This document shows positions 11,232 through 61,176 of a stretch of 64,000 nucleotides of DNA, piece by piece. The translations under genes and the position numbers were made by a program. Origin of the DNA: Tritrichomonas musculus (lineage: Eukaryota; Parabasalia; Tritrichomonadida; Tritrichomonadidae); the NCBI GenBank assembly GCA_039105265.1, contig JAPFFF010000062.1, positions 310,001 to 374,000 on the forward strand, written 5' to 3'. The notes beneath the pieces were generated by a model, which searched no databases, had not been told where the DNA came from, and worked only from the letters and a program-made list of their open reading frames with translations. Numbering within the stretch: the stretch's first letter is position 1; each line of letters begins with the position of its first letter.

Positions 11232-11302
11232 TTGCGTTCCAATAAATTATCGATCCAAACTCTTCCCATCAATAATATATTAGTTTTATTATTATTATTA
11301 TT

Positions 11303-31289: not shown

Positions 31290-31298
31290 AAATTTGGT

Positions 31299-31484
31299 GG
31301 GACAATATCAAAATTTCCACTTTTTCTCTGGCCAGTATCAAAATTTTCAATTAAAAAAAAATAAGTATCATTTTTTAATAGAAAAAAAAATTCTAGTATC
31401 ATATTTTAATAGAAAAACATTTCATGAGTATCACTTTTTTTTATCAATTTTTTTATCTTTTGCAACAAGTGCACAGGAAAAATC
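31299..31484 (+). repeat. Outermost part of left MULE TIR
   Basis: This is the inverse of 53587-53772 with only two base differences, both in the first ten positions. The repeat is broken at 31484/31485 by the nested hAT element and resumes at 37916. Confidence 0.92.
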
Positions 31485-31729
31485 TAAAGGTCTCTTCCCG
31501 AGCTAAAAATCCTATTTTGGGACGGGAAGTATTCAAATTTCGGGAATTGAACTTTTTGATAAGAAGTCAATTTTAATATGAAAAATTAAAGGTCTCTTCC
31601 AGAGCTAAAATCCAAAAAAAAATATATATTTTAATAAAAAGCTATTTGTTTAATATTGTAACATATATGCAATATAAATCAATTTATAAAAGAGAAAATT
31701 AAAATTAAAAAAAATAAAAATAAATGGTA

Positions 31730-33311
31730 GAGTATATGGAAAAAAAAAAATTATGAGACAAAATAATATTAATCACCATTTCACATAAATAGAAAAGATT
31801 TAGAAATCTGAGATTTTGCAGTTTTATTTATCATTATAATTGATGTAGTATCATCGTATTTTTGCTTATTTTTATAAAGGTAAATTCTCAATATAATTAA
31901 TCTACATTTTTTTAAATAATGATTAATTTTGAATTTTTTAATGGTATTTTATTTTCAAACACATAATATATTATTTCCTTATAGAAAAATTTAATATATA
32001 AGGCGTATTACATGATATATTTTAATATATGATATCATATCGAACTTATCAAAAAGTTGATAAAAAAAAGAATTAACAAAAAACTATCATTTCTTAATAA
32101 TATTTGAAATTATTTGGGTATTTGATATTAAATAGATATTTTTATTTCATATATATCAAAAACTAATAAAAATATTAATTTTTCACAAAATATCAATATG
32201 ATTATTTGATTTTCATTTTTCGGTTTTTACCCTGTTATTATAATGTTAAAGATGTCCACAATGGAATTCCAGAGTTTCAGTTTTGTAACTTTATGGTACA
32301 TGATTTTTTTCTTACAGAAAAGAGAAAAAAATTTTTTTTGGTAAAAAAATATAATAATGCACATTAAACCTCAAGCTAAAAAAAATTACTTCCGCAAATT
32401 AATTAAGTGCATCTTATACATTTATTATTTATAATTGATGAATTGAAATATTTCATATATAATGAATTGAAAATGATTCAATTTTTTTTCAAAAAATACC
32501 AATTATTTTCAGAATGCAATGAACTTATTTCAATTTATCAATATATTCATAATATATGATTGTATATAAATTCGTTTTCCATATCATATTCTTTTGTAAT
32601 CATTTTTTTCTTGTGAAAACCTAGATATAAAATATTTTTAATTTTTAATTTTTTCAATTCATCAAACATAATAAATTGACAAAACCAATTAGAAATCAAT
32701 AAACACATAATATATATTTTAATGAGAAATGACGTTCATTTGAAATTGTTTGTCTAATAGAGTTTTTTGCATTTTTTTTAAGAAGAATGTGATATTCATA
32801 ATTCAACAAATATATTTGATTCAAAACATTATCTTAGATATTTACAACGCATATATGATATATATTATTTTCCCCAAAATTGGTAAGAATCTATTAAGGA
32901 TATGTTAGGATGACCCCAAAAGTGAAGTGAAAATTATGTACAAATTATTTGTAATTTTTTTTCTGTTTGTAGTAGGCTTTAGGAATTGATAATAATAAGA
33001 AACAATTAAAATCATATTACATTAATAATTATTACTTATAATACAAAAGATAATTATTATTTCAGAGAATATGCTTAAATTATTTTTTTTTTTACAATAT
33101 TTTTTTAGTTTATTATTTGTTTCACATCTAACTGAGAAAATGCATTTTCATTTGGATATAAAATTAGAAATTATATGAAAAACATTTATTACTTATTATT
33201 ATTAGAAAAGCTCTTATATTTTGAGAAAATTTATTTATTTTTTTATCCGACCAAATATAAATTGACCATTAATTTTTTTTTGTCCATTAATTTTTTTTTT
33301 CCCATATACTC
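31730..33311. mobile_element. TA-flanked insertion inside the hAT, 1.6 kb
   Basis: GAGTATATGGAAAAAAAAAA at 31730 is mirrored by the inverse of GAGTATATGGGAAAAAAAAA ending at 33311; both are flanked by TA (31728-31729, 33312-33313). The ends pair over roughly 25-30 bp, but a large share is A-run. The interior shows no gene. It is best read as a mariner-type non-autonomous element nested within the hAT. Confidence 0.5.
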
Positions 33312-33313
33312 TA

Positions 33314-34585
33314 TATCGAACCTGAAACATATTACAAAATTTATCCATTGAATTAAATAATAAATATCGGCATTTAATTATAATATTTGATATATAATTT
33401 AATTTAGTTTTTTAGTAATCAATCTATCAAATTCTTATAAATATTAATTAAATAATAATTAATTACCAATATTTTTACTATTAAGACAAAAATATAATAT
33501 ATTAGAACAACTTTATCTTCAGTTTATAAAATGATATAAATTATCTGCAATCAGTTTATTCAAAAATACCTTTGTTATCAGTTTGTAAAATGAGATAAAC
33601 AAGCAAACTATTGATTATTTGAAACAATCAAACAAAAAAATGTATTTTTAAATAAACAAATAATTCGTATCAAATAATCAATGAACATTACGAAAACTAT
33701 ATATTTAATCCCAACTTTATTCATTCAGCATAGGAACAAAATGAATTTTAGTCTCTTGCTGCTATTTATATCAAGCTAAGCTTCCTTTGATTCAATATTA
33801 AATATAGTTAATTTGACTTATTAAGTGCATGTACTAGTTCATTTATCCCCAACAATGGTTATTATTTATATTATTAATTAATATTCAACAATTACACCTC
33901 TTGATATATTATAATTTAACTTTTATAAAATTGATCGCACTGAATAGAAAGTATAGAGTAATCAGCCCTGATTCAAATTTACATTGCATTTCTTAAATTA
34001 TAAATATTGTTGAATTTTTTTTCATCTGATGATTTGATTGATAATCAATTCATTAATTCAATTATACGAGAAAATTGATTGGAGCAAAAAGGAATTAAAG
34101 TGATAAAATAGATTCCAAAGTCAAATTCTTCGCCAAATGGTTTTATGATAATTTAAATGAAAGAAGGACTTTGAAAGAAAACAACACAATAATTGTAAGA
34201 ATTATCACGAATGCATTAAAAGAGAATGTAGAATTGCATGAGTAAGTCACGAAAGAAATGAATGAAGGCTTAAACAGAGAATTCAATTCATTTGACAAAT
34301 TAAGTTGAATGACAAATTAAATGAAAACATTGCTTTGAATATAGAAGAATGACAAATTAAATGATCACTTTGAGCGATAACTTCATTTAAAATGCGTCAT
34401 TAGATAGAAAAGCGAGTATACTTAATTAATAATGCCAATTATTTTATAATAATTAAAATTTGTTGATTTTTTTATGGTGTTGGTTTTGCCATCAGTTCTT
34501 TTTAAATCTTATGATGAATCAATGTGATTCATGAATTTAATTTAAATAAAAAATATCAATGTTTTAAATAATATATAAAGAGTTT
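33314..34585. other. Non-coding part of the hAT element
   Basis: AT-rich sequence between the nested insertion and the transposase gene; no further gene seen. Confidence 0.5.
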
Positions 34586-36631
34586 TTATTTATTATTTTG
34601 TAGATGAATTAATCTTGCATTTTGTAAATCTGGTTTTGATTTCTGAGAACGATCTTTAGCTATAAAACCTTGTAAAGAAATTGCTCTTTCACAATTCGTC
34701 TCTGTTGCGGCAATCGAATCGAGTCTTAATGCTATATCTGCAAGAACCTTCCATTTTGTAACTTCTTCTGTTTGAGCTTTAATTATTTCTTCCCAAAATG
34801 CCATTGGATTTTCTTTCTCACCAATTAGTTCATAAAAAGGGATATCGTTGTGAGCTAAATTTAACCATTCATGCAATCTTTTATATAAATTTTGTTGTTC
34901 AAAAACACTTATTTTCAAATATTTGATTAATTTTCCTATAGCTTCCCGGCATTTTTCATAAGCAGATCCTTTTTCATTTTGTTGTTCTAATTCAGCATCA
35001 TCATCCTTTTTTTTAAAAAATTCTATGTCATCTGTTTGCGTTTGTTCTTCGGTTACCAAATCTAAAAGAGCTTCTATATTGGTTTCATCATTTTTTTTCT
35101 CAGCAGATTGGTTTAATAAAAGATCTGGAAGTTGAAGATTTTTGAATGTAGTATAAATCTCTTCATTTTCAGGATGACGATGGTTTTCCATTTGGTAAAT
35201 TGCTGATCTTCCTTGTGGAGTTAATACGTAGGCCAATAGGATCAATGATTGCTGAGGAGATGTTGTTGTGTAGTACTTAACGTTGACTATTAAAGTATTT
35301 ATAATTTGAAGATAATCTTTTTCTTTACAATTTTCTTTAAGCTTTTCATACTGATTTATAACTTCTGTGATTATCGGATAAACATCACCTAATGAACATC
35401 TGTTATCACTTAAAAGTAAAGTTGCTGATCTCAATGGATGCAAAATTTTAATAAAAAAATCAAGATCAAAATCTATATTGTATGTTTCTGTTTCTTGAGA
35501 AGAAATTATATCTTTAATACATTCAATATTTTGCGATAAAAAGATACTTATATTGAAAATATACTGCCATCTAGTTACTATAGGTTCTGGACAGATCTTT
35601 TTCAAAGTTTTAACTTGTGCGGGTTTGCGTAAAAAAATTGCCAATTTATTTATATTATTCACAATGTTTTTAAACAATTTCATTTCTCTATATGTTTTTT
35701 TGAAAGAATTTTGTAGTCTATGATTAAAACATGGCGAGAACATTATTTTTGAAAAGTTGCCAATGCCTTTCTTGTGTTGAAATGCTTCGCTTGATTCAGG
35801 ATCTAAGCCAGCTACTTGAGCACGAAGTCCATCACCGATGAAACATGTTATTTTATCTTTAAGAGTTGACAAACGATCATGATTTAAGCATTCCAAGGCC
35901 AAATGTGCGTATCCTTCGGCTGTTAAACTTTCAGTGTCTTTTATGAAAACTGAAAATGATTTTTTTCTGGACCATACGACAAAATTTATAAAATGCCTTG
36001 CTCCAGTTTGGCCTCCATCTAAACATATTGAAATATATCTGGAATATTGCATATGTGAAATGGCTTGATTTAATATTTTGTCAGCTGTTTCAATCATAAT
36101 TTCTCTTATTTTTTCAGGTCCAATTTTTGGAATGATTTCTTCTGTTGGAGTTTTAGAATATTGTTGATAATTTTTTCTGTAAAAGTTAAGTGATGCATAT
36201 ATAATTTGGAATAAATCATCTGAGCATCCTTTATTTAGCGACAAATTTGCAGTAGCTGTGAAATGAGCCATTTTTGAGTAAATATCATATCTTGTGTTGA
36301 TATGCGTAGTAGATCGTCTAATATGCTTATCCAAAGGACCAAAAATATCTGGATTTTTGGTTTTATGCACGTGAACCCCTGCATAAGATCGATGGTGGTC
36401 TGCTCGTTGATCGTAATAGCACCAAAAAATTTCATTATTTGAATTTCTTTCATAATATCCACACTGATAATAATTTTTTGAATTAATAGTATGCTTCCAA
36501 AAGCCATAATCAGTTCCACTTCCAACTTTGAAATTTAAATCACCTAATTCTTTTGTATAACCAGGTCCTGGAGAAATTGCAACTTCAGCATTGTTATAGT
36601 TGCCATTATGTTCGGTTTCTTCTTGTTCCAT
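34586..36631 (-). CDS. hAT-family transposase, intact
   Basis: The 681-residue protein has the marks of a hAT transposase. A Cys/His-rich region near 57-90 (C57, C71, H79, H80, H87, H89) may be a BED-type DNA-binding finger. The RNase H-like core follows, with D205 in CLDGGQTG, D267 in CFIGDGLR, the conserved Cys-His pair in SPCFNHRLQ (301-304) and the TRW motif at 353-355. A long helical insertion comes next, then the C-terminal dimerisation block FWEEIIKAQTEEVTKWKVLA and LRLDSIAATETNCERAISLQ, equivalent to the hAT signature with the final catalytic Glu. It is not broken by stops. It is the only gene of the 6.4-kb element whose 8-bp TSD fits this family. ATG at 36631 is the first in frame. 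Confidence 0.87.
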   Translation of the reverse strand: MEQEETEHNGNYNNAEVAISPGPGYTKELGDLNFKVGSGTDYGFWKHTINSKNYYQCGYYERNSNNEIFWCYYDQRADHHRSYAGVHVHKTKNPDIFGPLDKHIRRSTTHINTRYDIYSKMAHFTATANLSLNKGCSDDLFQIIYASLNFYRKNYQQYSKTPTEEIIPKIGPEKIREIMIETADKILNQAISHMQYSRYISICLDGGQTGARHFINFVVWSRKKSFSVFIKDTESLTAEGYAHLALECLNHDRLSTLKDKITCFIGDGLRAQVAGLDPESSEAFQHKKGIGNFSKIMFSPCFNHRLQNSFKKTYREMKLFKNIVNNINKLAIFLRKPAQVKTLKKICPEPIVTRWQYIFNISIFLSQNIECIKDIISSQETETYNIDFDLDFFIKILHPLRSATLLLSDNRCSLGDVYPIITEVINQYEKLKENCKEKDYLQIINTLIVNVKYYTTTSPQQSLILLAYVLTPQGRSAIYQMENHRHPENEEIYTTFKNLQLPDLLLNQSAEKKNDETNIEALLDLVTEEQTQTDDIEFFKKKDDDAELEQQNEKGSAYEKCREAIGKLIKYLKISVFEQQNLYKRLHEWLNLAHNDIPFYELIGEKENPMAFWEEIIKAQTEEVTKWKVLADIALRLDSIAATETNCERAISLQGFIAKDRSQKSKPDLQNARLIHLQNNK

Positions 36632-37915
36632 TAATATTTAAGAGCAAATATAAAGAAGATATAATCGAAAATTTTAAAAAATTTTTATATGGCCATCAAA
36701 AAAATATAAATATTTTCGTTAATATGTTGAAATAATTATTTTAAAAAGAATATTTATTTGTTCTATTTTTTATATTAAATATTATAAAAGTTTGGCATAA
36801 ATTTATGAAATATTCCTAAAAAAGTAATATTCATATTTTATGACAAATGAAAAATTTGGAAATCGGCTCATTAAATATCTTTTTAATCAAACATAAATTA
36901 TTATATAGAAATTTATAAGATTGAAGTTTAAGGTATAAGATACTCTATGAAAAATAAAGGTTGCATAAAGACTTTAGATATTGAGAAAAATGTGAAAAAA
37001 AGAAATATTTCAAGTCTTTATATAGTCCATTTAATAAATCACAATGTTTACAAATCGATTTAATTGGAGTTATAGTTTTTATGAAGATAAAATAACTATT
37101 TTTCATATTGAAGATGGCTGATTATCCATAATTCCAGATAATTTTTTATCTATAACTTCATATAGAAGAATAATCTAAATACAACAAAAGACATTTGATG
37201 CAAATTCTCAGTCAATTATAAACTTTCGTTTATAATCATATAATTGATTTTGTTGATTTATCATTTTAAATCATTTTTTCAAGAACAATATATCATTGTT
37301 GGTATATTATCCAAATTTTCGTTTACTATTTTCTATGCTAAATGGTGTATATTTAATTGAACTAATAGATATTTTTTTTTTGGTTCAAATATAAATAACT
37401 GATAATTTGCATCAAATATCTTCTGATTTGGGTATATGAATTGATCGTATAGGGTGCTTAATAATTCCAAATTTAGTTTATATGAGAATATGAGTTTTGG
37501 CAACTTAATCCCACAATCTAAATTTTGTTTTATAATTGAAAAAGTTTCAATTTTTCAATACTTCCCGATTTCCCGAATTCCCGAATTCCCGAAAATCGGG
37601 AAGTATTCAATTTTTTATGAAAAAGTTTAACTTTTTGTATTTAAAAATGGTTCGGGAACTCGGGAAGTATAGAAAAAGTTAAAATTTTATTTTTAAGGCA
37701 TTTAATTTTTGAGGAAAAAAAAGAAAGTAAAGTATTTAATTTTTCAATAATTTTTTAATTATATTAATATAATTTTCACAGCTATTTTGGTCAAATAATT
37801 TCGATTTTTTTTCGACAATTTTTAATTTTTCTTTCAATTTAATCTCTTCCCGGGAATTTTTTTTATCATTTGGGCCGGGAATTTCCCTTCTCAATTTTTC
37901 GGGAAGAGACCTTTA
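36632..37915. other. Right subterminal region of the hAT
   Basis: Non-coding. Between 37554 and 37680 and again at 37840-37910 it holds many GGGAA/TTCCCG motifs in both orientations, probably transposase-binding sites or small palindromes. Confidence 0.5.
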
Positions 37916-40900
37916 GAAAAATCTAAAAAAAAATATATCTCGAATCAGCTACAGGAGAACGTTCAAATGATAGTATTTTTATGCAAAAGTAAACAAGTCG
38001 CTCGACATATTAAAATTTATTTCACCAAGAATCATTCGAAAAAAAGTATTTAACGCTGGTTTATTGTAGAAAAACAAGTTTAACATAATTTTTCTCAGCA
38101 ACATGAGCTCAAACCCAGTTTTTCAAATCGATGTCTAATTACGAATAATCAATTTTTTTACTGGTCTACTTATGTACCAAGTTTTACTGCTTCAATTAAT
38201 ATTCTTTATCATTTTTTACATATATTCATGACTACAAATACTATGTAATTCGCTTTCTATTTTTGAAAATTCTCATGAATATTCAAAAAATTATTCAAAA
38301 AACAGAGACAAAAATATGTTATATCTACACTATATATAGCATAACTTTAAAATATAGTAGTATTGTTTCTTTATTTTCTTTTTTATGTCTAAAAACTTAA
38401 TAATTTTGCAAAATTGTAAACGAATAATAAACGTTCTTCTTTTTCATTTATTTTTCTTTTCATCAAATTATAAATTCTTTGAGCCTTTTTCTAATGAAAA
38501 TTTAACATTTTAAAAATATTTAGAAATAAATTATTGTAATTTAATGAAAATGATTAAATATTATAATCAAATGAAAAATATCCAATTAATATGATTGAAT
38601 GTACTTGATTGTTTATAATAATTCGATATTTATAAAAAATGCAATTGTATGAATGTGATTATTTAGAAGATTTGATTTGTTTAGAAGAATGTGATTGATT
38701 AATAATTCTATTTGAATCAATTATATTCAATTATAAATAGGTAATACTTTCATTCTTTTAATCGCTTTAATTCAATCACTTTTACTCATTCAATTACATG
38801 CATTCATTCAATCACTTTCATTCATTCAATCACTTTCATTCATTCAATTACATTCATTCATTCAATTACTTTCATTCATTCAATCTCTTTCATTCATTCA
38901 ATCACTTTCATTCATTCAATCACTTTCATTCATTCAATCACTTTCATTCATTCAATTACATTCATTCATTCAATTACATTCATTCATTCAATTACTTTCA
39001 TTCATTCAATCTCTTTCATTCATTCAATCACTTTCATTCATTCAATCACTTTCATTCATTCAATTACATTCATTCATTCAATTACATTCATTCATTCAAT
39101 TACATTCATTCATTCAATTACATTCATTCATTCAATCACTTTCATTCATTCGATTACTTTCATTCAATCAATTACATTCATTCATTCGATTACATTCATT
39201 CATTCAATTACTTTCATTCATTCAATCACTTTCATTCATTCAATCACTTTCATTCATTCAATTACATTCATTCATTCAATTACATTCATTCATTCAATTA
39301 CATTCATTCATTCAATTACATTCATTCATTCAATCACTTTCATTCATTCGATTACTTTCATTCATTCAATTACATTCATTCATTCAATTACATTCATTCA
39401 TTCAATTACATTCATTCATTCATCACTTTCATTCATTCAATTACTTTCATTCATTCAATTACATTCATTCATTCAATTACATTCATTCATTCAATCACTT
39501 TCATTCATTCATCACTTTCATTCATTCATCACTTTCATTCATTCAATTACTTTCATTCATTCAATTACATTCATTCATTCAATTACTTTCATTTATTCAA
39601 TTACTTTCATTCATTCAATTACATTCATTCATTCATCACTTTCATTCATTCGATTACATTCATTCATTCAATTACATTCATTCATTCAATCACTTTCATT
39701 CATTCGATTACTTTCATTCATTCAATTACATTCATTCATTCAATTACATTCATTCATTCAATTACATTCATTCATTCATCACTTTCATTCATTCAATTAC
39801 TTTCATTCATTCAATTACATTCATTCATTCAATTACTTTCATTCATTCAATTACATTCATTCATTCAATTACATTCATTCATTCGATTACATTCATTCAT
39901 TCAATCACTTTCATTCATTTGATTACATTCATTCATTCATCACTTTCATTCATTCGATTACATTTATTCATTCAATTACATTTATTCATTCAATTACATT
40001 CATTCATTCAATTACTTTCATTCATTCGATTACATTCATTCATTCAATCACTTTCATTCATTTGATTACATTCATTCATTCATCACTTTCATTCATTCGA
40101 TTACATTTATTCATTCAATTACATTTATTCATTCAATTACATTCATTCATTCAATTACTTTCATTCATTCGATTACATTCATTCATTCAATTACATTCAT
40201 TCATTCAATTACATTCATTCATTCATCACTTTCATTCATTCAATTACATTCATTCATTCAATTACATTCATTCATTCGATTACATTCATTCATTCATCAC
40301 TTTCATTCATTCGATTACATTTATTCATTCAATTACATTCATTCATTCAATTACTTTCATTCATTCAATTACATTCATTCATTCAATTACTTTCATTCAT
40401 TCAATTACATTCATTCATTCAATTACTTTCATTCATTCAATTACATTCATTCATTCATCACTTTCATTCATTCGATTACATTTATTCATTCAATTACTTT
40501 CATTCATTCAATTACATTCATTCATTCATCACTTTCATTCATTCATCACTTTCATTCATTCGATTACATTCATTCAATCAATTACTTTCATTCATTCAAT
40601 TACATTCATTCATTCGATTACATTTATTCATTCAATTACATTCATTCATTCAATTACATTCATTCATTCATTCACTTTCATTCATTCGATTACATTCATT
40701 CATTCATCACTTTCATTCATTCAATTAATTTCATTCATTCATTCATCACTTTCATTCATTCAATTACATTCATTCATTCATCACTTTCATTCATTCAATT
40801 ACATTCATTCATTCAATTACATTCATTCATTCAATTACATTCATTCATTCAATTACATTCATTCATTCAATCACTTTCATTCATTCGATTACTTTCATTC

Positions 40901-42407
40901 AATCAATTACATTCATTCATTCAATTACATTCATTCATTCAATTACATTCATTCATTCATCACTTTCATTCATTCAATTACTTTCATTCATTCAATTACA
41001 TTCATTCATTCAATTACATTCATTCATTCAATCACTTTCATTCATTCATCACTTTCATTCATTCAATTACTTTCATTCATTCAATTACATTCATTCATTC
41101 AATTACTTTCATTTATTCAATTACTTTCATTCATTCAATTACATTCATTCATTCATCACTTTCATTCATTCGATTACATTCATTCATTCAATTACATTCA
41201 TTCATTCAATCACTTTCATTCATTCGATTACTTTCATTCAATCAATTACATTCATTCATTCAATTACATTCATTCATTCAATTACATTCATTCATTCATC
41301 ACTTTCATTCATTCAATTACTTTCATTCATTCAATTACATTCATTCATTCAATTACTTTCATTCATTCAATTACATTCATTCATTCAATTACATTCATTC
41401 ATTCGATTACATTCATTCATTCAATCACTTTCATTCATTTGATTACATTCATTCATTCATCACTTTCATTCATTCGATTACATTTATTCATTCAATTACA
41501 TTTATTCATTCAATTACATTCATTCATTCAATTACTTTCATTCATTCGATTACATTCATTCATTCAATCACTTTCATTCATTTGATTACATTCATTCATT
41601 CATCACTTTCATTCATTCGATTACATTTATTCATTCAATTACATTTATTCATTCAATTACATTCATTCATTCAATTACTTTCATTCATTCAATTACATTC
41701 ATTCATTCAATCACTTTCATTCATTCATCACTTTCATTCATTCGATTACATTCATTCAATCAATTACATTCATTCATTCAATTACATTCATTCATTCGAT
41801 TACATTCATTCATTCATCACTTTCATTCATTCGATTACATTTATTCATTCAATTACATTCATTCATTCAATTACTTTCATTCATTCAATTACATTCATTC
41901 ATTCAATTACTTTCATTCATTCAATTACATTCATTCATTCAATTACTTTCATTCATTCAATTACATTCATTCATTCATCACTTTCATTCATTCGATTACA
42001 TTTATTCATTCAATTACTTTCATTCATTCAATTACATTCATTCATTCATCACTTTCATTCATTCATCACTTTCATTCATTCGATTACATTCATTCAATCA
42101 ATTACTTTCATTCATTCAATTACATTCATTCATTCGATTACATTTATTCATTCAATTACATTCATTCATTCAATTACATTCATTCATTCATTCACTTTCA
42201 TTCATTCGATTACATTCATTCATTCATCACTTTCATTCATTCAATTAATTTCATTCATTCATTCATCACTTTCATTCATTCAATTACATTCATTCATTCA
42301 TCACTTTCATTCATTCAATTACATTCATTCATTCGATTACATTCATTCATTCATCACTTTCATTCATTCAATTACATTCATTCATTTAATTACAGTCATT
42401 CATTCAC
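37916..42407 (+). repeat. Left MULE TIR, main part
   Basis: Bases 37924-38790 are the inverse of about 52720-53586 with essentially no differences. From 38790 inwards the arm becomes the 18-bp minisatellite. The arm ends at 42407, where unique sequence begins. Confidence 0.9.
38790..42407 (+). repeat. 18-bp minisatellite of the left MULE arm, about 200 units
   Basis: The basic unit is TTCATTCATTCAATTACA with common variants ending in ATTACT, ATCACT or GATTACA, and a 17-bp variant lacking one base (TTCATTCATTCATCACT). The unit length is a multiple of three and has no stop in any frame of this strand, so open frames of 285-507 codons appear in all three frames, encoding periodic His/Ser/Phe/Ile/Asn (HSFNYI, FIHSIT, SFIQLH). 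The 17-bp units shift between them. Nothing suggests that these are genes. Larger duplications of 143 bp and 1520 bp lie on top of the short unit. Confidence 0.95.
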
Positions 42408-43379
42408 TATGCCAATTTTTTGTTGAGGAAAAATATTAAATCTTAACAATCTTTTTCAATTTTATAATGTCTTAAAACTCTATGAAATTTCTTTAATCTA
42501 TCTTTTAAGTAAACTAGTTATTTTGAGAATCGATATCAAAAACGTCACTTTTTTACATCTGATACTCGATTATCAGTTTAGAAATCTGATATCGAGATTA
42601 TCGATTATCAAGATATCAGGTATGAAATGTGATATAAAAATAATTGTAAACTTGATATTAATTACCGAGATCTCGAGATCTCAAACAGATTTATCTTTTT
42701 TTATAATTGGTATTCGTGATTTTATAATATTTAAAAACATATAATATAATGTATTGATGTTTATTTTAAGTTTAAAATCAAAAAATACATTCTTTTTTTA
42801 TGAAATACTTGAGATTAAAATACGATCATATTTTTATCAAAAAGTTTAATTGAAAATTCTGATATCAAAAGCTGAGAAAAAAATTCTCGATCTCTGAAAT
42901 CGATCTCGAGAAACTGTGTATATTTATGTATCGATATCAAAAAGTCAATCAATTATCGATCTCGAGAATCGGAGAATAACAAGTCTACTCTTAAGACTGT
43001 TTTTAAGTATGATTAAATTGAATAGAAAATGTTCGTTCCTATTTTGTGTCCAAAAAATTCTAATCTATTTCCAAAACTGCTGTACTCAATTTAAAAATCA
43101 GCGAGCTTTCTAAAGTAATAATAGAATATTAAAATAAGAGGATTTATGGAATGTTATCATGAAAAAGTTATTAAGGGCGTACATTCCAAAAATGCTGTAA
43201 ACTTTTCAGCATTGAATAAACTCATAGAATATATCTTTCAATACTTCCAAATGATGAAAAAGTTTAGGTCAAAAATGATGATATTTGTCCTAAATAATTA
43301 AAAATTTACGAAAAATATTTCGATCGAAAACAGTGTTTTCTAGTATAGGGGTCACATATGAAATTCGTTAAAAGTGGTT
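42408..43379. other. MULE interior, no gene; GATATC/CTCGAG-rich patch
   Basis: Bases 42520-42980 carry many ATCGATATC, GATATC and CTCGAG motifs at both ends of the patch, reminiscent of subterminal repeats of a small decayed transposon; no clean TIR or TSD was found. The rest is unassigned. Confidence 0.35.
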
Positions 43380-44238
43380 TAAGTTGGTATTGGTTAATGC
43401 TGTCATAAATTTTTTCATTAATGTATTTGTTAATGTGTAATCGTAAATGTATTCGAAAATGAAATTGCAAATGTATTCGTTAATTCATGATCGTTTTTGT
43501 TAATGTAAATGTATTCGATAATGTACTCACTAATTTATTCGTTAATATTATTGTTGTTAATGCATTTCATAGTTTTCGATAGATCGAGTATTATCCAAAA
43601 ATATGTGTGTATGATCTGTGTTCAGTGTCAATTTATTACTTAACACGAATTTGTTATGTATTTGATAGGGTACTCGATGTGATGTATCTGTAAATGATAT
43701 ATGTAAGTAATGTATTCGATAATAGTAATATTTAATGAAAAAAACCATTTTATCGTTGAGGTTACTAAACAGGATAGATATCGAGGTAGATCTAACCTTT
43801 TCACGTGTCGATTTAGTATTTAGCACAATTTCTTGAAGTACTAGTATATTATTCGAAAAGTTTATCTATATATTTAAATGCTTTCGTATTTGGATCGTAA
43901 TATCTAGATTTATAGGTATCACTCTTTTCTGGTTTGGTATTCTTTCGTGGTACTGTTCAAGATATATTACAGAGCTTGCCATTGCGTTTCGTGAATCGTT
44001 TATTCTTTTAGGGTATATCTTCATTTAAGGATCTAGTAATGTATTTTCTAGCATTAAGATTAAGACATAACTGAGTATTAAAGGTTTTATGGTCGCATTT
44101 AGCAGTTAACTCCGTAATCGCTCTTTTCAGTAATGGTAAATCATCTATAGATTACAACTCTTCTAGACTTGGCTCTGTTGTATTCTTGCTCTTACTATTC
44201 GTAGAAGATATTTCTCTGAAACTCATTTCTGTAGTCAT
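43380..44238 (-). pseudogene. Decayed cargo gene of unknown family
   Basis: From an ATG at 44238 the minus strand reads MTTEMSFREISSTNSKSKNT, SIDDLPLLKRAITELTAKCD, HKTFNTQLCLNLNARKYITR and DTYKSRYYDPNTKAFKYIDK in a single frame, interrupted by TAA and TGA codons. The first stops are where CAA or CGA codons would fit (after SLEEL, after LNEDIP, after KLCNIS). Further downstream coding-like sequence continues with more stops (SEYIIEYIYINKND near 43450). Codon use (ACG, CGA, TCG) and base composition differ from the surrounding DNA. An 89-codon open piece at 43557-43826 belongs to it but starts without ATG. Probably foreign or captured DNA that has decayed. I do not recognise the family. Confidence 0.45.
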
Positions 44239-44596
44239 TTTTTATTTATAAATATTCCATTAAAAAGATATCGTAAATAGGATTTCAGTGAAGTTTTATT
44301 GGCTACTAGAACTTTACTGAAGAACTATCTCATGTGTATCATTAAATCAATAAAGTTCGATCTATCGTTTAGAAACTCGTTGGAAAGCTATATATATAGA
44401 AGGTCATTAAGTGTTCTCGGAGGTCTAAGAAGGTTTTAAAAGCCTGCAGAGTGAGGATACGTCGCACCCCTTATTCTTACTACTCATGCTGAAAATAATA
44501 GAATTGAATTCCATTCGCTCTAGCACGTTATATATTTGCAACACTTGCAATGAGCAAAGGAAAAATTATTGATATTCTTGATCATATTTTTCATAA

Positions 44597-44914
44597 TCAG
44601 AAACAATAAAACCCTGTAGTTCTAGATGATGAAGAACTAAACCTAGAAATTTTTGTTTTGATCTCTTCATAAAATGGACGAAATGTTTTTTTCGATAGCA
44701 AAATCATTAAATATTTTAACATTAAATTATTTTCAAGTCTTTTGATGTTACATTTATCTTCACAATAGCGTTTTTTTGCCGATTTTTTGGTTATATAAAA
44801 TGATTTACATAATAAGCACATAAAAATTAGAAACAAATCATGTGTATTGCATTTGGTAATTATTTTAACAAAGCTAAAAGTAACATCAAATTGATTTATA
44901 AACAAGTCACTCAT
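44597..44914 (-). CDS. Hypothetical 105-residue protein with cysteine pairs
   Basis: ATG at 44914 opens a 105-codon frame. The middle has CLLCKSFYITKKSAKKRYCE followed by DKC, that is Cys-x2-Cys, 13 residues, Cys-x3-Cys, which could bind zinc. The N-terminal part is hydrophobic (FSFVKIITKCNTHDLFLIFM), the C-terminal part basic and serine-rich. It lies inside the MULE, divergent from the DUF3447 gene (132 bp apart). It may be a small element-encoded protein or a chance frame; no family recognised. Confidence 0.35.
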   Translation of the reverse strand: MSDLFINQFDVTFSFVKIITKCNTHDLFLIFMCLLCKSFYITKKSAKKRYCEDKCNIKRLENNLMLKYLMILLSKKTFRPFYEEIKTKISRFSSSSSRTTGFYCF

Positions 44915-45045
44915 ATTAATTGAAATTAAAAAAAAAAAAAAAAATCAGAATAAAAAATAAACTATTGAATTTTCAAAGCTATAAAAAAAATTCTGAGCTT
45001 TGAAACTTTTTGTATATACACTCAGTTTTGATAAAGCAAAACGTA

Positions 45046-46251
45046 ATGGATTGTAAGAAATATATACAGCAAATGAGAATGGTTCAAGCCAATATTCTCT
45101 CCTTTATAAATGAAGATAAAAATACAGAAGAATACTTTCAAATTTTAACCAATTTATTTGATGATCTAAATTATAATAATGATAAGCAAAAATTAAGAAT
45201 TATTCTGAATATGATTGCAAAAATTGTTAATAATCATCATCGTGTATCCGATTTCTTCTGTAAAATAGAGAAAATTTTAATGTTTCTAAAGGATGATATC
45301 ATTAACATCTATTCTAATTCAGAAATTTTCGATATTTTCAAGAGAAACAAACGAATTCTTTTATTTCTCATCCAAGAAAAAATGATAATTGTTGATGAAT
45401 ACATTATTAAAATATTTACAAAAAATCCATATTCAAATAAATATATTTTTGAAAATTATCTTCAATATTTTTCGCCTGAAATTCAGCCTTTAAGAAAACA
45501 AAATTGGTTTCCAAAATTAAAAGGTATATTCGAAGAAAATAATTTTGATGAGGAAATGGGAAAAGAATTACCAGAAAATTTTTATGAAAATAGGAAAGCA
45601 GGAGAAAATCACAATCCTATTTGTAAAATTATACAAAATGACTCAATTGAAGAATTTATTTCATATATTAACCAAAATAATCTCCCATATAATGCAAAAA
45701 TCGAGCCATCAATATATGAAACAAACTCTTTTTTAATTAAAAAGCAAACTGAATCTAAAAGGCGATTTTTATTTGGTTCAAGTACCAATAATTATGGAGT
45801 CTCATTAATTGAATACGCAGCATTTTTTGGTTCGAATAAAATCTTTAAATTTTTGTATGAAAATGGCGCCAAAATATCACATTCATTGATGCTTTTTGTA
45901 ATACATGGAAACAGCGCAGATTTATTTCAATATACTAAAAATGATGTCAATAACTTTTTTCTTTTAGCTATGGAATCAATTAAATGTCATCATAATGAAA
46001 TGTTTAATAATATTCAAAGCAACTATCTTGAAAATGAAAACTTATATTCAAAAGATTTTGTCGCGCAAGGTTTGAAGTATTATAATTATGCGTTTATTGA
46101 GAATAGTTACATCAATAAATCCACTTTTAATGATTTATGTAAGTATAATCATTATACTCTTGTTGATATTCTTTTGAAGAACAAAGATATAGATGTAAAC
46201 GAAATAATTTTATTTGTTGTAATAATTCAATTTTGTGTATTAAAGTGTTAA
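45046..46251 (+). CDS. DUF3447/ankyrin-type protein inside the MULE, 3'-truncated by frameshift
   Basis: The 401 residues match the trichomonad DUF3447 architecture: N-terminal helical region (MDCKKYIQQMRMVQANILSF), then LIEYAAFFGSNKIFKFLYEN, then the AMESIKCHHNEMFNNIQ motif and FNDLCKYNHYTLVDILLKNK, the start of the ankyrin repeats. The closest comparison in the window is the host gene at 59.3-60.4 kb, which has the same blocks (SLIEYAAFFGSIHIFQYLLK, ESVKCHHNELAHYI). The frame ends at 46251 in the ankyrin part; fragments in other frames continue the repeat (next entry), so a frameshift has shortened it. ATG at 45046 is preferred over upstream frame without ATG. Role unknown; ankyrin repeats bind proteins. 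As passenger between the TIRs it looks like a captured host gene. Confidence 0.75.
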   Translation: MDCKKYIQQMRMVQANILSFINEDKNTEEYFQILTNLFDDLNYNNDKQKLRIILNMIAKIVNNHHRVSDFFCKIEKILMFLKDDIINIYSNSEIFDIFKRNKRILLFLIQEKMIIVDEYIIKIFTKNPYSNKYIFENYLQYFSPEIQPLRKQNWFPKLKGIFEENNFDEEMGKELPENFYENRKAGENHNPICKIIQNDSIEEFISYINQNNLPYNAKIEPSIYETNSFLIKKQTESKRRFLFGSSTNNYGVSLIEYAAFFGSNKIFKFLYENGAKISHSLMLFVIHGNSADLFQYTKNDVNNFFLLAMESIKCHHNEMFNNIQSNYLENENLYSKDFVAQGLKYYNYAFIENSYINKSTFNDLCKYNHYTLVDILLKNKDIDVNEIILFVVIIQFCVLKC

Positions 46252-46489
46252 ACATTGCTTAAATCAAGCAATTCAATAATATTGAAAAATACATGTTTTA
46301 AGAGCATTCCAAATTTTTTTTAAATGAAATTTATAACAAAAAATTGAATGAAATTCATATTAACATTAATAAAGCTGCATTAAATTTAGCTGTTGAAAAA
46401 GGAAATATAGAAATAGTCAAGCTTTTAATAGCCACTGAAAAAATAAAAGTTTCTAATATTCCGATTGAAGTTTTTTGATATTGAAGAGG
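46252..46489 (+). pseudogene. Decayed ankyrin repeats linking DUF3447 gene and transposase
   Basis: Beyond the stop at 46251 another frame reads ILCIKVLNIA, and at 46374-46470 there is NKAALNLAVEKGNIEIVKLL, a clear ankyrin repeat, then IATEKIKVSNIPIEVF. After one more frame change near 46470 the sequence DIEEAIQLAQRELNNEIFKL continues the ankyrin pattern in the frame of the transposase ORF. At least three frameshifts or stops lie in between. Confidence 0.7.
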
Positions 46490-48510
46490 CCATTCAACTT
46501 GCACAAAGAGAATTAAATAATGAGATTTTCAAACTTTTGTCTGATGTTATTGACGATAAAAATAAACAAAAAAATAATGCATCTTCAAAAAGAAAGCCTG
46601 GGCGACCAAGAAAATTAGTTGACGATAGTTCTGAAAGCAAAAAGAGTGAGAATAAAAAGCGTGAGAACAAAAAGCATGTTGATAATGAAATGAGATTGCT
46701 AAATTTAGATAATCCTCACCTGAAATCAGGAAATTCATTTGGTAATCATATTCCTTTAAAAGAACAAGTGAATGACGATGAAATAATTGATTTTTATGAA
46801 CAAAATATTTGTAAAGATATCGACTGGAAAAACATAAATGCGGAAAAACTTTTCACGAATGAAACAATTGAAAAAGTGGGAAAAGATGATGTTAAGAATG
46901 ACAACAAACAAGATAAACTTGAAATAGTTACAAGAGACAACATAGAAACAAAATTTGCACCATTTCCAGATCATTATAGTGTTCAAACATATGCTACCGA
47001 AGCAAACAAAGAATACACATTAACTGAAGAAGAAACTAACAATTCAGAATTGATCATATTTAAGTGTAAATCAAAAAAATGCGATTACAAAATTACGTTT
47101 ACTTATGTAAACGATGGTTTTCATGTAACTGAACAAACTAAGCATACTTGCAAAGGTCCCAAAATAATTAAACTAAATGATTTGAAACAAACTATTAAAA
47201 AGCTCGGAAAGCAAGTTGTTGTCGATATAGATTATTATAATTTAGTAAGGAAAGAACTTAATGCCGACAAAGAAACACTTAATAAATTAAGAATAAGAAG
47301 AGTATATAATGATATATTCGAGTTAAATACTAATAAAAGATTGAAATCCTGGGGAAAACTAGAGAGTTTTTTGGATATAATAAGAAGAAATGGAGGATAT
47401 GGAAAAGTGCATAGAAATAAAGATAATCTTGTGGAGTTTGTTGGATTCACACCAAATTATGCTGTCGATTTTATTAATTCAGTGATGTTTTTTCCAGTTG
47501 TACAGATCGACACCCGCTTTCAGACAGGAATTGCAGGGGGTCATCTCTATTGTATGGTAACCCTTTCAGGAAATCGTACTATTATCCCATTAGCTGCTGC
47601 ATGGTCCCCTTCTGAAAGACAAGATTATACAAGAATGCTATTAGAAATGATGGGAAAAGAATTGCATAATATAAAAGTGTGTCAAACAGATGAATCCGGG
47701 GCATTGATAACACCTGTTGAAGAAGTTGGAATTGAAAATCAACTTTGCATCTTTCATATGTCACTTCATTGCAAAGATCTGCATATGTTAATTAAATTAG
47801 CTTCGGCATCAGATTCACATGAATTTGCTGAAACTATGAAAACAATTTCAGATGAATATGATGACTTAAGGAAGTATCTAGAAAATAAAGATCATTTGAA
47901 AAAAGTAAGTCGCTTTGCATCATCTGGTCCAAGAGATCAAAACTTGGCCACAGCAGCAGTAGAATCTTTAAATGCATTTGTTAAAAGACTACACCTCAAA
48001 AATAAAGAACCACTTGAAGTATTTTTGCATTTATATGAATTTGGATTCCTTGCAATCCAGAAAATATGTCTTCAAAAAAGTTATTTTACAACATCAGTTT
48101 CTGAATGGTTAAGCTATGCTTTAGCGATTGCGCATAATTTAACGGTTATTCACACAGATCTAGAATGGGAAAAATATGATGTAAGCAAAGATAATGATCC
48201 TGATACAAATTGCACAGTAATTTTGACTTCAAGTAATGAAGCATCATGCACATGTCTGTTCTATAAAGACTGTGGCATGCCATGCATACATTTATTGGCC
48301 GTAGCTTGTAAAAAACGAATAAATTGGTGCAAATGGATTCATCCACGCTATTATCCGTCAAATTACAGAAAGCATTTTAAGAATCTAACATATCCAGATT
48401 TTAATCAAATAATTCAAAAGACAGATGATTTACCTGTAGAAACTAAATCATTGAAACAAAAAAGCAAAAGAATCCCAAACCCAGGTGAAAAAAAAAGTAA
48501 GAAAAAATAA
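46465..48510 (+). CDS. MULE transposase with zinc finger, DDE core and SWIM finger
   Basis: The frame is open from 46447 to the stop at 48508-48510. The first ATG is at 46690 (606 residues), but an AT-hook, KRKPGRPRK, lies upstream of it, and an in-frame TTG stands at 46465; the true start is uncertain. Numbered from 46465: ankyrin-like tail 5-30; AT-hook 43-50; WRKY/GCM1-type finger C201, C206, H227, C229; MULE core with D349 (VVQIDTRF), D409 (CQTDESG), C428/H431 (CIFHM) and E500 (AAVESLNAF); and SWIM finger C595, C597, C607, H609 (CTCLFYKDCGMPCIHLL). All catalytic residues are present, so it is likely active. It should act on the giant TIRs. The C-terminus is lysine-rich, a probable nuclear signal. 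Confidence 0.92.
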   Translation: MKFFDIEEAIQLAQRELNNEIFKLLSDVIDDKNKQKNNASSKRKPGRPRKLVDDSSESKKSENKKRENKKHVDNEMRLLNLDNPHLKSGNSFGNHIPLKEQVNDDEIIDFYEQNICKDIDWKNINAEKLFTNETIEKVGKDDVKNDNKQDKLEIVTRDNIETKFAPFPDHYSVQTYATEANKEYTLTEEETNNSELIIFKCKSKKCDYKITFTYVNDGFHVTEQTKHTCKGPKIIKLNDLKQTIKKLGKQVVVDIDYYNLVRKELNADKETLNKLRIRRVYNDIFELNTNKRLKSWGKLESFLDIIRRNGGYGKVHRNKDNLVEFVGFTPNYAVDFINSVMFFPVVQIDTRFQTGIAGGHLYCMVTLSGNRTIIPLAAAWSPSERQDYTRMLLEMMGKELHNIKVCQTDESGALITPVEEVGIENQLCIFHMSLHCKDLHMLIKLASASDSHEFAETMKTISDEYDDLRKYLENKDHLKKVSRFASSGPRDQNLATAAVESLNAFVKRLHLKNKEPLEVFLHLYEFGFLAIQKICLQKSYFTTSVSEWLSYALAIAHNLTVIHTDLEWEKYDVSKDNDPDTNCTVILTSSNEASCTCLFYKDCGMPCIHLLAVACKKRINWCKWIHPRYYPSNYRKHFKNLTYPDFNQIIQKTDDLPVETKSLKQKSKRIPNPGEKKSKKK

Positions 48511-48599
48511 TATTTAAATGCTTTCCTATTTTTTAAATAAACCAATTTAAAATATATCATTATTTATTTTTTTTATTTGAATGAAATTGAATAAACATA

Positions 48600-51500
48600 T
48601 ACAAATTGGTTGGAATGAAAATAAATGAGAGTGATTGAATGAATGAAAGTGATTGAATGAATGAAAGTGATTGAATGAATGAAAGTGATTGAATGAATGA
48701 AAGTGATTGAATGAATGAATGTAATTGAATGAATGAAAGTGATGAATGAATGAATGAAAGTGATTGAATGAATGAAATTAATTGAATGAATGAATGTAAT
48801 TGAATGAATGAAAGCGATTGAATGAATGAAAGTGATTGAATGAATGAATGAAAGTGATTGAATGAATGAAAGTGATTGAATGAATGAAAGCGATTGAATG
48901 AATGAAAGTGATTGAATGAATGAATGAAAGTGATTGAATGAATGAAAGTGATTGAATGAATGAAAATGATTGGATGAATGAAAATGATTGAATGAATGAA
49001 TGTAATTGAATGAATGAAAATGATTGAATGAATGAAAGCGATTGAATGAATGAAAGTGATTGAATGAATGAATGAAAGTGATTGAATGAATGAAAGTGAT
49101 TGAATGAATGAATGTAATCGAATGAATGAATGTAATTGAATGAATGAATGTAATTGAATGAATGAAAGTAATTGATTGAATGAATGTAATCGAATGAATG
49201 AATGTAATCGAATGAATGAAAGTGATGAATGAATGAATGTAATTGAATGAATGAAAGTAATTGAATGAATGAATGTAATTGAATGAATGAAAGTAATTGA
49301 ATGAATGAATGTAATCGAATGAATGAATGTAATCGAATGAATGAATGTAATCGAATGAATGAAAGTAATTGAATGAATGAATGTAATTGAATGAATGAAA
49401 GTAATTGAATGAATGAATGTAATCGAATGAATGAATGTAATCGAATGAATGAAAGTGATGAATGAATGAATGTAATTGAATGAATGAAAGTAATTGAATG
49501 AATGAATGTAATTGAATGAATGAATGTAATTGAATGAATGAAAGTAATTGAATGAATGAAAGTGATGAATGAATGAAAGTGATGAATGAATGAAAGTGAT
49601 TGAATGAATGAATGTAATTGAATGAATGAATGTAATTGAATGAATGAAAGTAATTGAATGAATGAAAGTGATGAATGAATGAATGTAATTGAATGAATGA
49701 ATGTAATTGAATGAATGAATGTAATTGAATGAATGAATGTAATTGAATGAATGAAAGTAATTGAATGAATGAATGTAATCGAATGAATGAATGTAATTGA
49801 ATGAATGAAAGTAATTGAATGAATGAATGTAATTGAATGAATGAATGTAATCGAATGAATGAAAGTAATTGAATGAATGAATGTAATTGAATGAATGAAT
49901 GTAATTGAATGAATGAAAGTAATTGAATGAATGAATGTAATTGAATGAATGAATGTAATCGAATGAATGAATGTAATCGAATGAATGAATGTAATCGAAT
50001 GAATGAATGTAATCGAATGAATGAATGTAATTGAATGAATGAAAGTAATTGAATGAATGAATGTAATCGAATGAATGAATGTAATCGAATGAATGAAAGT
50101 GATGAATGAATGAATGTAATTGAATGAATGAATGTAATTGAATGAATGAATGTAATTGAATGAATGAATGTAATTGAATGAATGAAAGTAATTGAATGAA
50201 TGAATGTAATCGAATGAATGAATGTAATCGAATGAATGAAAGTGATGAATGAATGAATGTAATCGAATGAATGAAAGTAATTGAATGAATGAATGCAATT
50301 GAATGAATAAATGTAATCGAATGAATGAATGTAATTGAATGAATGAAAGTAATTGATTGAATGAATGTAATCGAATGAATGAAAGTGATGAATGAATGAA
50401 TGAAATTAATTGAATGAATGAAAGTAATTGAATGAATGAAAGTAATTGAATGAATAAATGTAATCGAATGAATGAATGTAATTGAATGAATAAATGTAAT
50501 CGAATGAATGAAAGTGATGAATGAATGAATGTAATCAAATGAATGAAAGTGATTGAATGAATGAATGTAATCGAATGAATGAATGTAATCGAATGAATGA
50601 ATGTAATTGAATGAATGAATGTAATTGATTGAATGAAAGTAATTGAATAAATGAAAGTGATGAATGAATGAAAGTGATTGAATGAATGAATGTAATTGAA
50701 TGAATGAATGTAATTGAATGAATGAATGTAATTGAATGAATAAATGTAATTGAATGAATAAATGTAATCGAATGAATGAAAGTGATGAATGAATGAATGT
50801 AATCAAATGAATGAAAGTGATTGAATGAATGAATGTAATTGATTGAATGAATGTAATCGAATGAATGAAAGTGATGAATGAATGAAAGTGATTGAATGAA
50901 TGAATGTAATTGAATGAATGAAAGTAATTGAATGAATGAATGTAATTGAATGAATAAATGTAATTGAATGAATAAATGTAATCGAATGAATGAAAGTGAT
51001 GAATGATGAATGTAATCAAATGAATGAAAGTGATTGAATGAATGAATGTAATCGAATGAATGAAAGTAATTGAATGAATGAATGTAATTGAATGAATAAA
51101 TGTAATTGAATGAATAAATGTAATCGAATGAATGAAAGTGATGAATGAATGAATGTAATCAAATGAATGAAAGTGATTGAATGAATGAATGTAATCGAAT
51201 GAATGAATGTAATTGAATGAATGAATGTAATTGAATGAATGAAAGTAATTGAATGAATGAATGTAATTGAATGAATGAAAGTAATTGAATGAATGAAAGT
51301 GATGAATGAATGAATGTAATTGAATGAATGAATGTAATTGAATGAATGAATGTAATTGATTGAATGAAAGTAATCGAATGAATGAAAGTGATTGAATGAA
51401 TGAATGTAATTGAATGAATGAATGTAATCGAATGAATGAAAGTGATGAATGAATGAATGTAATTGAATGAATGAAAGTAATTGAATAAATGAAAGTAATT

Positions 51501-53772
51501 GAATGAATGAATGTAATTGAATGAATGAAAGTAATTGAATGAATGAAAGTGATGAATGAATGAAAGTGATTGAATGAATGAAAGTAATTGAATGAATGAA
51601 TGTAATTGAATGAATGAAAGTAATTGAATGAATGAAAGTGATGAATGAATGAATGTAATTGAATGAATGAATGTAATTGAATGAATGAATGTAATTGATT
51701 GAATGAAAGTAATCGAATGAATGAAAGTGATTGAATGAATGAATGTAATTGAATGAATGAATGTAATTGAATGAATGAATGTAATTGAATGAATGAATGT
51801 AATTGAATGAATGAAAGTGATTGAATGAATGAATGTAATTGAATGAATGAATGTAATCGAATGAATGAAAGTGATGAATGAATGAATGTAATTGAATGAA
51901 TGAAAGTAATTGAATAAATGAAAGTAATTGAATGAATGAATGTAATTGAATGAATGAAAGTAATTGAATGAATGAAAGTGATGAATGAATGAAAGTGATG
52001 AATGAATGAAAGTGATTGAATGAATGAATGTAATTGAATGAATGAATGTAATTGAATGAATGAAAGTAATTGAATGAATGAAAGTGATGAATGAATGAAT
52101 GTAATTGAATGAATGAATGTAATTGAATGAATGAATGTAATTGAATGAATGAAAGTAATCGAATGAATGAAAGTGATTGAATGAATGAATGTAATTGAAT
52201 GAATGAATGTAATTGAATGAATGAATGTAATTGAATGAATGAATGTAATTGAATGAATGAAAGTGATTGAATGAATGAAAGTGATTGAATGAATGAAAGT
52301 AATTGAATGAATGAATGTAATCGAATGAATGAATGTAATTGATTGAATGAAAGTAATCGAATGAATGAAAGTGATTGAATGAATGAATGTAATTGAATGA
52401 ATGAATGTAATTGAATGAATGAATGTAATTGAATGAATGAATGTAATTGAATGAATGAAAGTGATTGAATGAATGAAAGTGATTGAATGAATGAAAGAGA
52501 TTGAATGAATGAAAGTAATTGAATGAATGAATGTAATTGAATGAATGAATGTAATTGAATGAATGAAAGTGATTGAATGAATGAAAGTGATTGAATGAAT
52601 GAAAGTGATTGAATGAATGAAAGAGATTGAATGAATGAAAGTAATTGAATGAATGAATGTAATTGAATGAATGAAAGTGATTGAATGAATGAAAGTGATT
52701 GAATGAATGCATGTAATTGAATGAGTAAAAGTGATTGAATTAAAGCGATTAAAAGAATGAAAGTATTACCTATTTATAATTGAATATAATTGATTCAAAT
52801 AGAATTATTAATCAATCACATTCTTCTAAACAAATCAAATCTTCTAAATAATCACATTCATACAATTGCATTTTTTATAAATATCGAATTATTATAAACA
52901 ATCAAGTACATTCAATCATATTAATTGGATATTTTTCATTTGATTATAATATTTAATCATTTTCATTAAATTACAATAATTTATTTCTAAATATTTTTAA
53001 AATGTTAAATTTTCATTAGAAAAAGGCTCAAAGAATTTATAATTTGATGAAAAGAAAAATAAATGAAAAAGAAGAACGTTTATTATTCGTTTACAATTTT
53101 GCAAAATTATTAAGTTTTTAGACATAAAAAAGAAAATAAAGAAACAATACTACTATATTTTAAAGTTATGCTATATATAGTGTAGATATAACATATTTTT
53201 GTCTCTGTTTTTTGAATAATTTTTTGAATATTCATGAGAATTTTCAAAAATAGAAAGCGAATTACATAGTATTTGTAGTCATGAATATATGTAAAAAATG
53301 ATAAAGAATATTAATTGAAGCAGTAAAACTTGGTACATAAGTAGACCAGTAAAAAAATTGATTATTCGTAATTAGACATCGATTTGAAAAACTGGGTTTG
53401 AGCTCATGTTGCTGAGAAAAATTATGTTAAACTTGTTTTTCTACAATAAACCAGCGTTAAATACTTTTTTTCGAATGATTCTTGGTGAAATAAATTTTAA
53501 TATGTCGAGCGACTTGTTTACTTTTGCATAAAAATACTATCATTTGAACGTTCTCCTGTAGCTGATTCGAGATATATTTTTTTTTAGATTTTTCCTGTGC
53601 ACTTGTTGCAAAAGATAAAAAAATTGATAAAAAAAAGTGATACTCATGAAATGTTTTTCTATTAAAATATGATACTAGAATTTTTTTTTCTATTAAAAAA
53701 TGATACTTATTTTTTTTTAATTGAAAATTTTGATACTGGCCAGAGAAAAAGTGGAAATTTTGATAAAGTCCC
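48600..53772 (-). repeat. Right MULE TIR
   Basis: Inverse of the left arm, about 5.2 kb, and uninterrupted. Its inner end starts at about 48626, only about 115 bp after the transposase stop. The outer 1.06 kb (52715-53772) is unique sequence shared with the left arm. Confidence 0.9.
48626..52715 (-). repeat. 18-bp minisatellite of the right MULE arm, about 225 units
   Basis: Same family of 17/18-bp units as the left arm, read on the minus strand. The outer part (from 52715 to about 51900) has the same order of variants as the left arm; the inner part differs and includes GAAAGCGATTGAATGAAT variants near the inner edge. Minus-strand open frames of 819, 586 and 517 codons here result from the stop-free unit and are not called as genes. 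Confidence 0.95.
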
Positions 53773-53781
53773 AAATTTGGT

Positions 53782-60407: not shown

Positions 60408-60486
60408 TTTTCCCTTCTTCAATTATTCTGAAATGTGATGTAAAAAATAAATAAAAATTGTATTTAAGAAACAAAACACAAAAAAC

Positions 60487-60792: not shown

Positions 60793-61105
60793 CTGAAAAA
60801 ATTCCACTTATTGAATGTCCTTCAGAATTTTACAACTCTTTTAATTTTTTTCATTTTCATGTTTTTCTATTTCAAATTTAATTTAATCACATTTACAAAA
60901 TGTAATCGCGTTGCATATATTTATAAATATAAAAGGATTCAAATAAATAAATAATAAATAAGTTTATGTTTTATAAAAGAATTTATATGAATTTGTAGAT
61001 ATGAATAAACATTTTTATATGATCATGATAAGCTAATTGTATATCATTTGTTGAAATATTCTTAAAAAAAAAAAAAATAAAAAACAAACAAAACACACAA
61101 AAAAC

Positions 61106-61176
61106 GAGGCAACTGGGACTCGAACCCAGATCTCAAGGGGGACAGCCGAGTATCCTGCCAATTGGACTATTGCCTC
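61106..61176 (-). tRNA. tRNA-Asp-like gene, copy B (anticodon GTC, bulged stem)
   Basis: Same sequence as copy A except that the acceptor stem is perfect, GAGGCAA/TTGCCTC. It shares the TT bulge in the anticodon stem. Of the three copies this one is the most likely to be functional. Confidence 0.65.

Follow-up and report, generated by a model that had tools for sequence, protein, structure and literature searches.

A probable Mutator-type transposon family with satellite-filled, Foldback-type arms in Tritrichomonas musculus

What kind of element lies between two long, inverted, satellite-filled arms on a contig of the parabasalid Tritrichomonas musculus, a gut protist of mice, and do the satellites belong to it? 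The stretch analysed (hereafter the window) comprises 64,000 nucleotides, C62:310001-374000 of a 193.4-Mb assembly of 746 contigs; the other C-numbers used below denote contigs of the same assembly. The original prediction, made from the sequence of the window alone, placed a giant satellite-armed Mutator-like element (MULE) at positions 31299-53772. The analysis reported here bears this out, in that the element belongs to a multi-copy family with its own target-site duplication at most sites and with the arrays inside its arms. I consider it very probable that this family is a cut-and-paste DNA transposon of the Mutator type (MULE/IS256-type DDE) with Foldback-type arms.

The insertion is bounded by an exact 9-bp target-site duplication, AAATTTGGT, at 31290-31298 and 53773-53781, and its inverted termini read GGGAC(AAT/TTT)ATC...; both features had been predicted, and both are found exactly at the borders 31299 and 53772. 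The outer 190 bp of the two ends differ by 2 bp only, AA versus TT at positions 6-7. Both arms have the same layout, with 1.03 kb of unique terminus outside and an 18-bp minisatellite inward of it. On the left, the terminus begins with GGGACAAT... and is split into an outer piece (31299-31484, forward strand), matching 53773-53583 at 98.95%, and an inner piece (37924-38769, forward strand) with an inverted match in the right arm. The left array follows at 38770-42406 (forward strand, about 203 copies, 89% matches in a tandem-repeat scan), then the core at 42407-48633 (forward strand) and the right array at 48634-52740 (reverse strand, about 228 copies, 90% matches in the same scan). The outer terminus of the right arm, at 52741-53772 on the reverse strand, is the family terminus and starts with GGGACTTT... 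Aligned in inverted orientation, 37916-42405 and 53594-49120 are 94.5% identical, and their first 1,790 bp are identical throughout.

The two pieces of the left terminus are separated by a second transposon of 6,431 bp (31485-37915, reverse strand), whose 16-bp ends, TAAAGGTCTCTTCCCG, are inverted and which is flanked by an 8-bp duplication, GAAAAATC, at 31477-31484 and 37916-37923; in the right arm the same site is unbroken. The insert is thus separate, and the Mutator-like element proper is about 16.0 kb long. The 22.5 kb (22,474 bp) given initially is the length of a composite, so that the predicted borders stand while the predicted size does not. With the insert subtracted, the left arm measures 4.7 kb and the right arm 5.1 kb (4.7 and 5.2 kb had been announced), and the minisatellite makes up most of each, as claimed.

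The original prediction had suggested looking for further copies with the same ends and target-site duplications, and had named shared borders as a test in advance. Such copies exist, and their borders agree. Matches to the 1-kb terminus were recorded at 40 places, with 40 of 113 candidates scored. A terminal pattern searched genome-wide returned 48 ends, 24 per strand, with none for the reversed-pattern control; a second terminal pattern, allowing up to 3 mismatches, returned 48 ends, each adjoining one of the first 48, again with none for its control. These ends resolve into 22 two-ended insertions and four single ends (C5:1879006, C54:769708, C64:742706 and C323:12120), the last of which shares its left flank with the C2a copy (C2 at 7584300). 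Since its ends are common to 22 two-ended copies, the element is not a chance structure. Exact duplications flank 18 of the 22 pairs, among them the window; eight measure 9 bp and ten measure 10 bp. Counted by site, the figure is 17 of 21 if C307 and C32, which share both flanks, are taken as one; the duplication of C38 consists of ten Ts. Insertion lengths range from 7,052 bp (C15) to 17,980 bp (C2a), the window composite of 22,474 bp standing apart. A 14-mer match at C4:5464659 was discarded as chance, as the family terminus does not follow it and neither end search returned it. Near 1872450 on C5, a single arm with 452 bp of core stops abruptly against other sequence.

The core of the window copy carries a predicted Mutator-type transposase of 606 amino acids (46690-48510, forward strand), identified from its open frame and alignment, with the catalytic residues D274, D334 and E425 and a SWIM-type C520/C522/C532/H534 motif. 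D274 and D334 are invariant in 7 of 7 aligned rows, while E425 and the SWIM-type CxC...CxH are present, as judged by eye, in all six rows that reach them. Mutator elements are recognised by duplications of 9-11 bp, a DDE transposase of MULE/IS256 type and a SWIM or other zinc finger, and these residues, together with 9-10 bp duplications in 18 of 22 pairs, agree with that. Two relatives exceed the corresponding Pfam cut-offs, P0015 for Transposase_mut (PF00872; 24.0 versus 21.0) and P0016 for SWIM (PF04434; 24.2 versus 19.6). A tblastn search against phage gave no match. The frame is open from 46465, and includes at 46600 a GRPRK motif, which I take to be AT-hook-like. Upstream, an ankyrin-type open reading frame (ORF) of 401 amino acids (45046-46251, forward strand) matches the N-terminal region of another relative, P0001. 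In P0001 the ankyrin-type region and the transposase share one frame; in the window they are separated by a stretch in another frame. The transposase had been described as intact, which applies to the 606-residue catalytic frame but not to the ankyrin part, whose frame is broken relative to P0001.

DNA matches to the transposase frame number 22 in the genome, two of them full length (the window and C49) and 20 partial, at 65-75% identity. The window and C49 copies are the only ones with full-length transposase DNA, and their cores are 99.9% identical over 6,227 bp. The nine other copies read whole retain termini, arrays and parts of the core, but none of them has an ORF of 200 amino acids; in C15 the longest has 76.

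Two further observations concern the N-terminal side of these proteins. The database protein P0014 carries a Methyltransf_4 domain (83.4 bits versus a cut-off of 24) before the transposase in the same frame, and a RGRP motif, presumably an AT-hook, lies near the domain joint in P0001, P0013 and P0014. Although few in number, these sequences suggest repeated capture of N-terminal, possibly host, domains near one joint. In the window itself, the N-terminal part of P0001 that is matched by the element's ankyrin-type ORF is also matched by a nearby ORF at 59265-60422, which may represent a host source family.

Eleven of the 22 pairs, the window included, were read whole; for the other 11, parts of both arms were read in C4, C5b and C6, and part of one arm in eight. 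An array is present in at least one arm of all 22 pairs, and in both arms of 14. In the 11 pairs read whole, the shortest array is the left one of C15, at about 0.55 kb, and the longest the left one of C2a, at 9.1 kb, a range of about 16-fold; TRF counts about 30 to about 520 units per array, and the larger array is up to about six times its partner (C28). Arms reach 10.1 kb, in the left arm of C2a. Long inverted arms with tandem subrepeats, of lengths that differ between arms and between copies, are the features of Foldback elements. Measured from the right end, C50 and C21b share 5,997 bp without a difference, and their right arrays are equal; on the left, the arrays diverge 2.8 kb from the end, with a difference of 540 bp between them. 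C1b, C11 and C13 are all 11,818 bp long (total lengths only were compared), and this shared length suggests that arrays can be carried along unchanged. As for the growth of arrays that had been proposed, lengths do differ between arms and sibling copies, but the direction of change is not seen.

It had also been proposed that the element could form cruciforms or give rise to long hairpin RNA, and that it could seed dispersed satellite DNA. The dimer typical of coding copies has 207 matches genome-wide, all accounted for by C49 (110), the window (52) and C5 (45). Six consecutive copies of the commonest unit match at 76 places, every one of them in a two-ended copy or in the C323 fragment, and the 100 matches listed, of 491, to a three-unit run lie in the C1 and C2 copies. 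Genome-wide searches with pure array patterns, which do not cover diverged or single units, thus found no array outside the family, and seeding is therefore not supported.

I next consider how far the two arms of one element match each other. The two arms of the window element show no difference between 178 and 1,968 bp from the end, well into the array, and differ by 2 bp further out; those of C49 can be followed together as far as 1,417 bp, with 2 small differences on the way. Between the two elements, the arms part at 1,144 bp after 4 earlier differences, 3 of which (two in the array) set both C49 arms apart from both window arms. The inner array edges, by contrast, go with the side of the core. 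Among the non-coding copies read whole, the two arms stay together to 1.11-1.15 kb in C1a, C21a, C28, C32, C50 and C21b and to 1.34 kb in C15. In C307 they do so as far as 1.77 kb, 15 small differences included, and in C2a for only 372 bp, with 4 differences. In the single arm of C5, the inner edge of the transposase-upstream side is joined to the TTT terminus that is otherwise found on the downstream side. In my reading, this mixed arm and the arm matching reflect conversion, or an exchange of sequence from one arm to the other; an artefact of polishing is a possible alternative.

These observations can be assembled into a mechanism for the Mutator-type, Foldback-armed reading. The transposase would act on the 1-kb termini, and would move the non-coding derivatives in trans. 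Array length would change via slippage or unequal exchange, and gene conversion or gap repair between the mirror-image arms would match their outer parts. The arrays would mainly be passengers that perhaps also provide additional sites for protein binding, a secondary role of the kind reported for Galileo.

A number of points weigh against this scheme. Movement in trans is deduced from shared ends only. Four of the 22 pairs have no exact duplication of 9-10 bp (none in C1b, C8 and C31, and 6 bp in C2b), and a search with the joined flanks of the window insertion, looking for an empty site, returned only both flanks and one weak self-match. The window transposase itself falls below the Pfam cut-offs for SWIM (19.3 versus 19.6) and MULE (PF10551; 18.5 versus 27.6). 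In six of the nine non-coding copies the matching between arms enters the array by only about 80-120 bp, and because several of these copies match no longer than different elements do, matching specific to one element is shown only in the two coding copies, not as a general rule. Arm identity could partly stem from assembly or polishing, as PacBio reads average 8.9 kb (PMC11978803), shorter than some arms.

The last point raises the question of whether the inverted arrays are themselves an artefact of assembly. Some contigs are indeed duplicates, since C307 and C32 share both flanks and C323 and C2a the left flank. Yet the design recurs at about 21 different sites, 17 of them with their own exact duplication, and unit order differs between elements while the inner edges go with the core side, which makes an artefact very improbable. 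A comparably low probability attaches to a separate origin of the non-coding copies, as a family whose ends came to be alike by convergence. Their terminal identity to the coding pair is 97-98% and not 100%, and a 17-bp unit variant is common in them; against this, pieces of the coding core are preserved in the nine that were read whole, at 87-97% identity and in the same relative order, and a separate origin is disfavoured. Lower still is the probability that an ordinary MULE inserted into, or came to be flanked by, pre-existing satellite blocks. The array is admittedly a simple ATTC-rich repeat, but it lies inside unique 1-kb termini, the duplications flank the whole insertion and pure array patterns are found in family members only; at the copies read, this explanation is refuted.

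More weight, while still unlikely, can be given to functional arrays, the inward repeats, hundreds of them, serving as a binding platform for the transposase, a role that has been suggested for Galileo, or for the trichomonad initiator-binding protein, and being kept by selection. Besides the occurrence of the array in every pair, CATTC reads inward in 30 of 30 arm loci examined. TCAYW, presumably a trichomonad initiator-like motif, occurs at 121-122 per kb inward in the arrays and not at all outward, compared with 7.1-7.6 per kb over the remainder of the window. There is also a parallel in Galileo, whose tandem repeats are described as containing extra THAP sites (PMC3688188). However, any CATTC repeat would give this density of TCAYW, variant units often lack one motif (by eye), and array length is, as noted, highly variable among the copies read whole. 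Nor is the unit more like the outer 250 or 700 bp of the terminus than shuffled sequences are, the observed score being reached by 38 and 57 of 60 shuffles, respectively; at 700-1000 bp from the end there is a weak signal, reached by 3 of 60. A more specific form, in which the arms, each with hundreds of repeats in one orientation, are a giant docking platform for either protein, kept alike by arm-to-arm conversion, is slightly more doubtful again; if true, the arms would constitute the element's own inward-facing satellite promoter or synapsis scaffold. The Mutator-type transposon with Foldback-type arms, its arrays mainly passengers, is retained as the preferred reading.

The insert nested in the left arm encodes a protein of 681 amino acids (34586-36631, reverse strand) with 10 database matches, one of them identical, and no Pfam match at E-values up to 10. 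A 100% identical copy of the gene lies at C10:3371668-3373713, where the right terminus of the element is the same and the left terminus is absent from its predicted place. The C-terminus of the protein resembles what I take to be the hAT dimerisation region. This motif, the start of the inverted ends and the 8-bp duplication seen at the window copy, which is of the size expected for hAT elements, indicate that the insert is probably hAT-like.

Elsewhere in the window, a Tc1/pogo-like element spans about 9252-13164, with a DDE_1 ORF at 9367-10536 lying between inverted ends that are about 62 bp long and adjoin TA. It includes minisatellites of its own, 124 bp x 5.5 at 10551-11230 and 53 bp x 7, identical, at 11805-12173. 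A direct repeat of about 1.06 kb (61007-62056 and 62936-64000, 98% identical) overlaps or adjoins an F5/8-type-C ORF.

Long arms with tandem subrepeats are known in Mutator-type elements, where they have been described as Foldback (Tm1, Tetris), a term absent from the original prediction, and classic Drosophila Foldback (FB) elements may also have long arms. A literature search by title and start of abstract, mostly without subscription papers, found no report of such an element in this host group. Tm1 of root-knot nematodes is a Mutator/Foldback family with 1-9 units of about 14 bp per arm. Like the family described here, it has a MULE transposase, encoded in one coding copy, beside non-coding copies, as well as 9-bp duplications, asymmetric terminal motifs, nested insertions and arms of short tandem units that vary in number from arm to arm and from copy to copy (PMC3169594). 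It differs in the number of units (about 30 to about 520 here), in its terminal motifs of 10 bp, compared with a 1-kb unique terminus here, and in its Phantom-like FLYWCH transposase (PMC3169594). Tetris of Drosophila virilis has the same order of parts, an outer flanking domain of up to 866 bp followed by an inward tandem array, has 8-10 bp duplications and is placed in Mutator by its authors; its unit is 220 bp, its terminal inverted repeats (TIRs) reach 1,735 bp and no coding copy was found (PMC4079207).

Galileo, of the P superfamily, likewise has long arms, some internally repetitive, with exchange between copies and other transposable elements inside the arms (PMC4168063, PMC3573991), and one copy, with TIRs of 4,246 and 4,680 bp, has the longest published arms compared (PMC4168063). 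It is distinguished by a P-type transposase and 7-bp target sequences (PMC4168063, PMC3573991), and by tandem repeats that measure about 140-210 bp and occur in few copies (PMC4168063, PMC3573991, PMC3688188). Among parabasalids, TvMULE1-4 of Trichomonas vaginalis are MULEs as well (PMC2725143), but their TIRs are 20-38 bp (PMC6446971), and the words 'tandem' and 'minisatellite' do not occur in the text of the paper describing them (PMC2725143). Rehavkus combines 9-bp duplications with a minisatellite, but has TIRs of 26-400 bp and a PHD finger, and its minisatellite is given as C-terminal; TIRs in that survey set span 14-500 bp (PMC6446971). The present family is thus larger than the published examples compared.

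Satellite DNA has been suggested to arise from Foldback elements. Tetris is the case worked out for this idea, and its repeats additionally occur as satellite arrays of kb size (PMC4079207), whereas such arrays outside the family were not found here. In T. musculus the arrays travel in transposition, change length between siblings and are arm-matched in the coding copies, so far within the family as searched. The early steps can be read copy by copy, as the family offers two coding copies that are almost identical, derivatives related as siblings, and arrays of up to 9 kb. The family therefore makes the satellite-seeding idea testable, and shows that the design seen in Tm1 and Tetris is present in a parabasalid.

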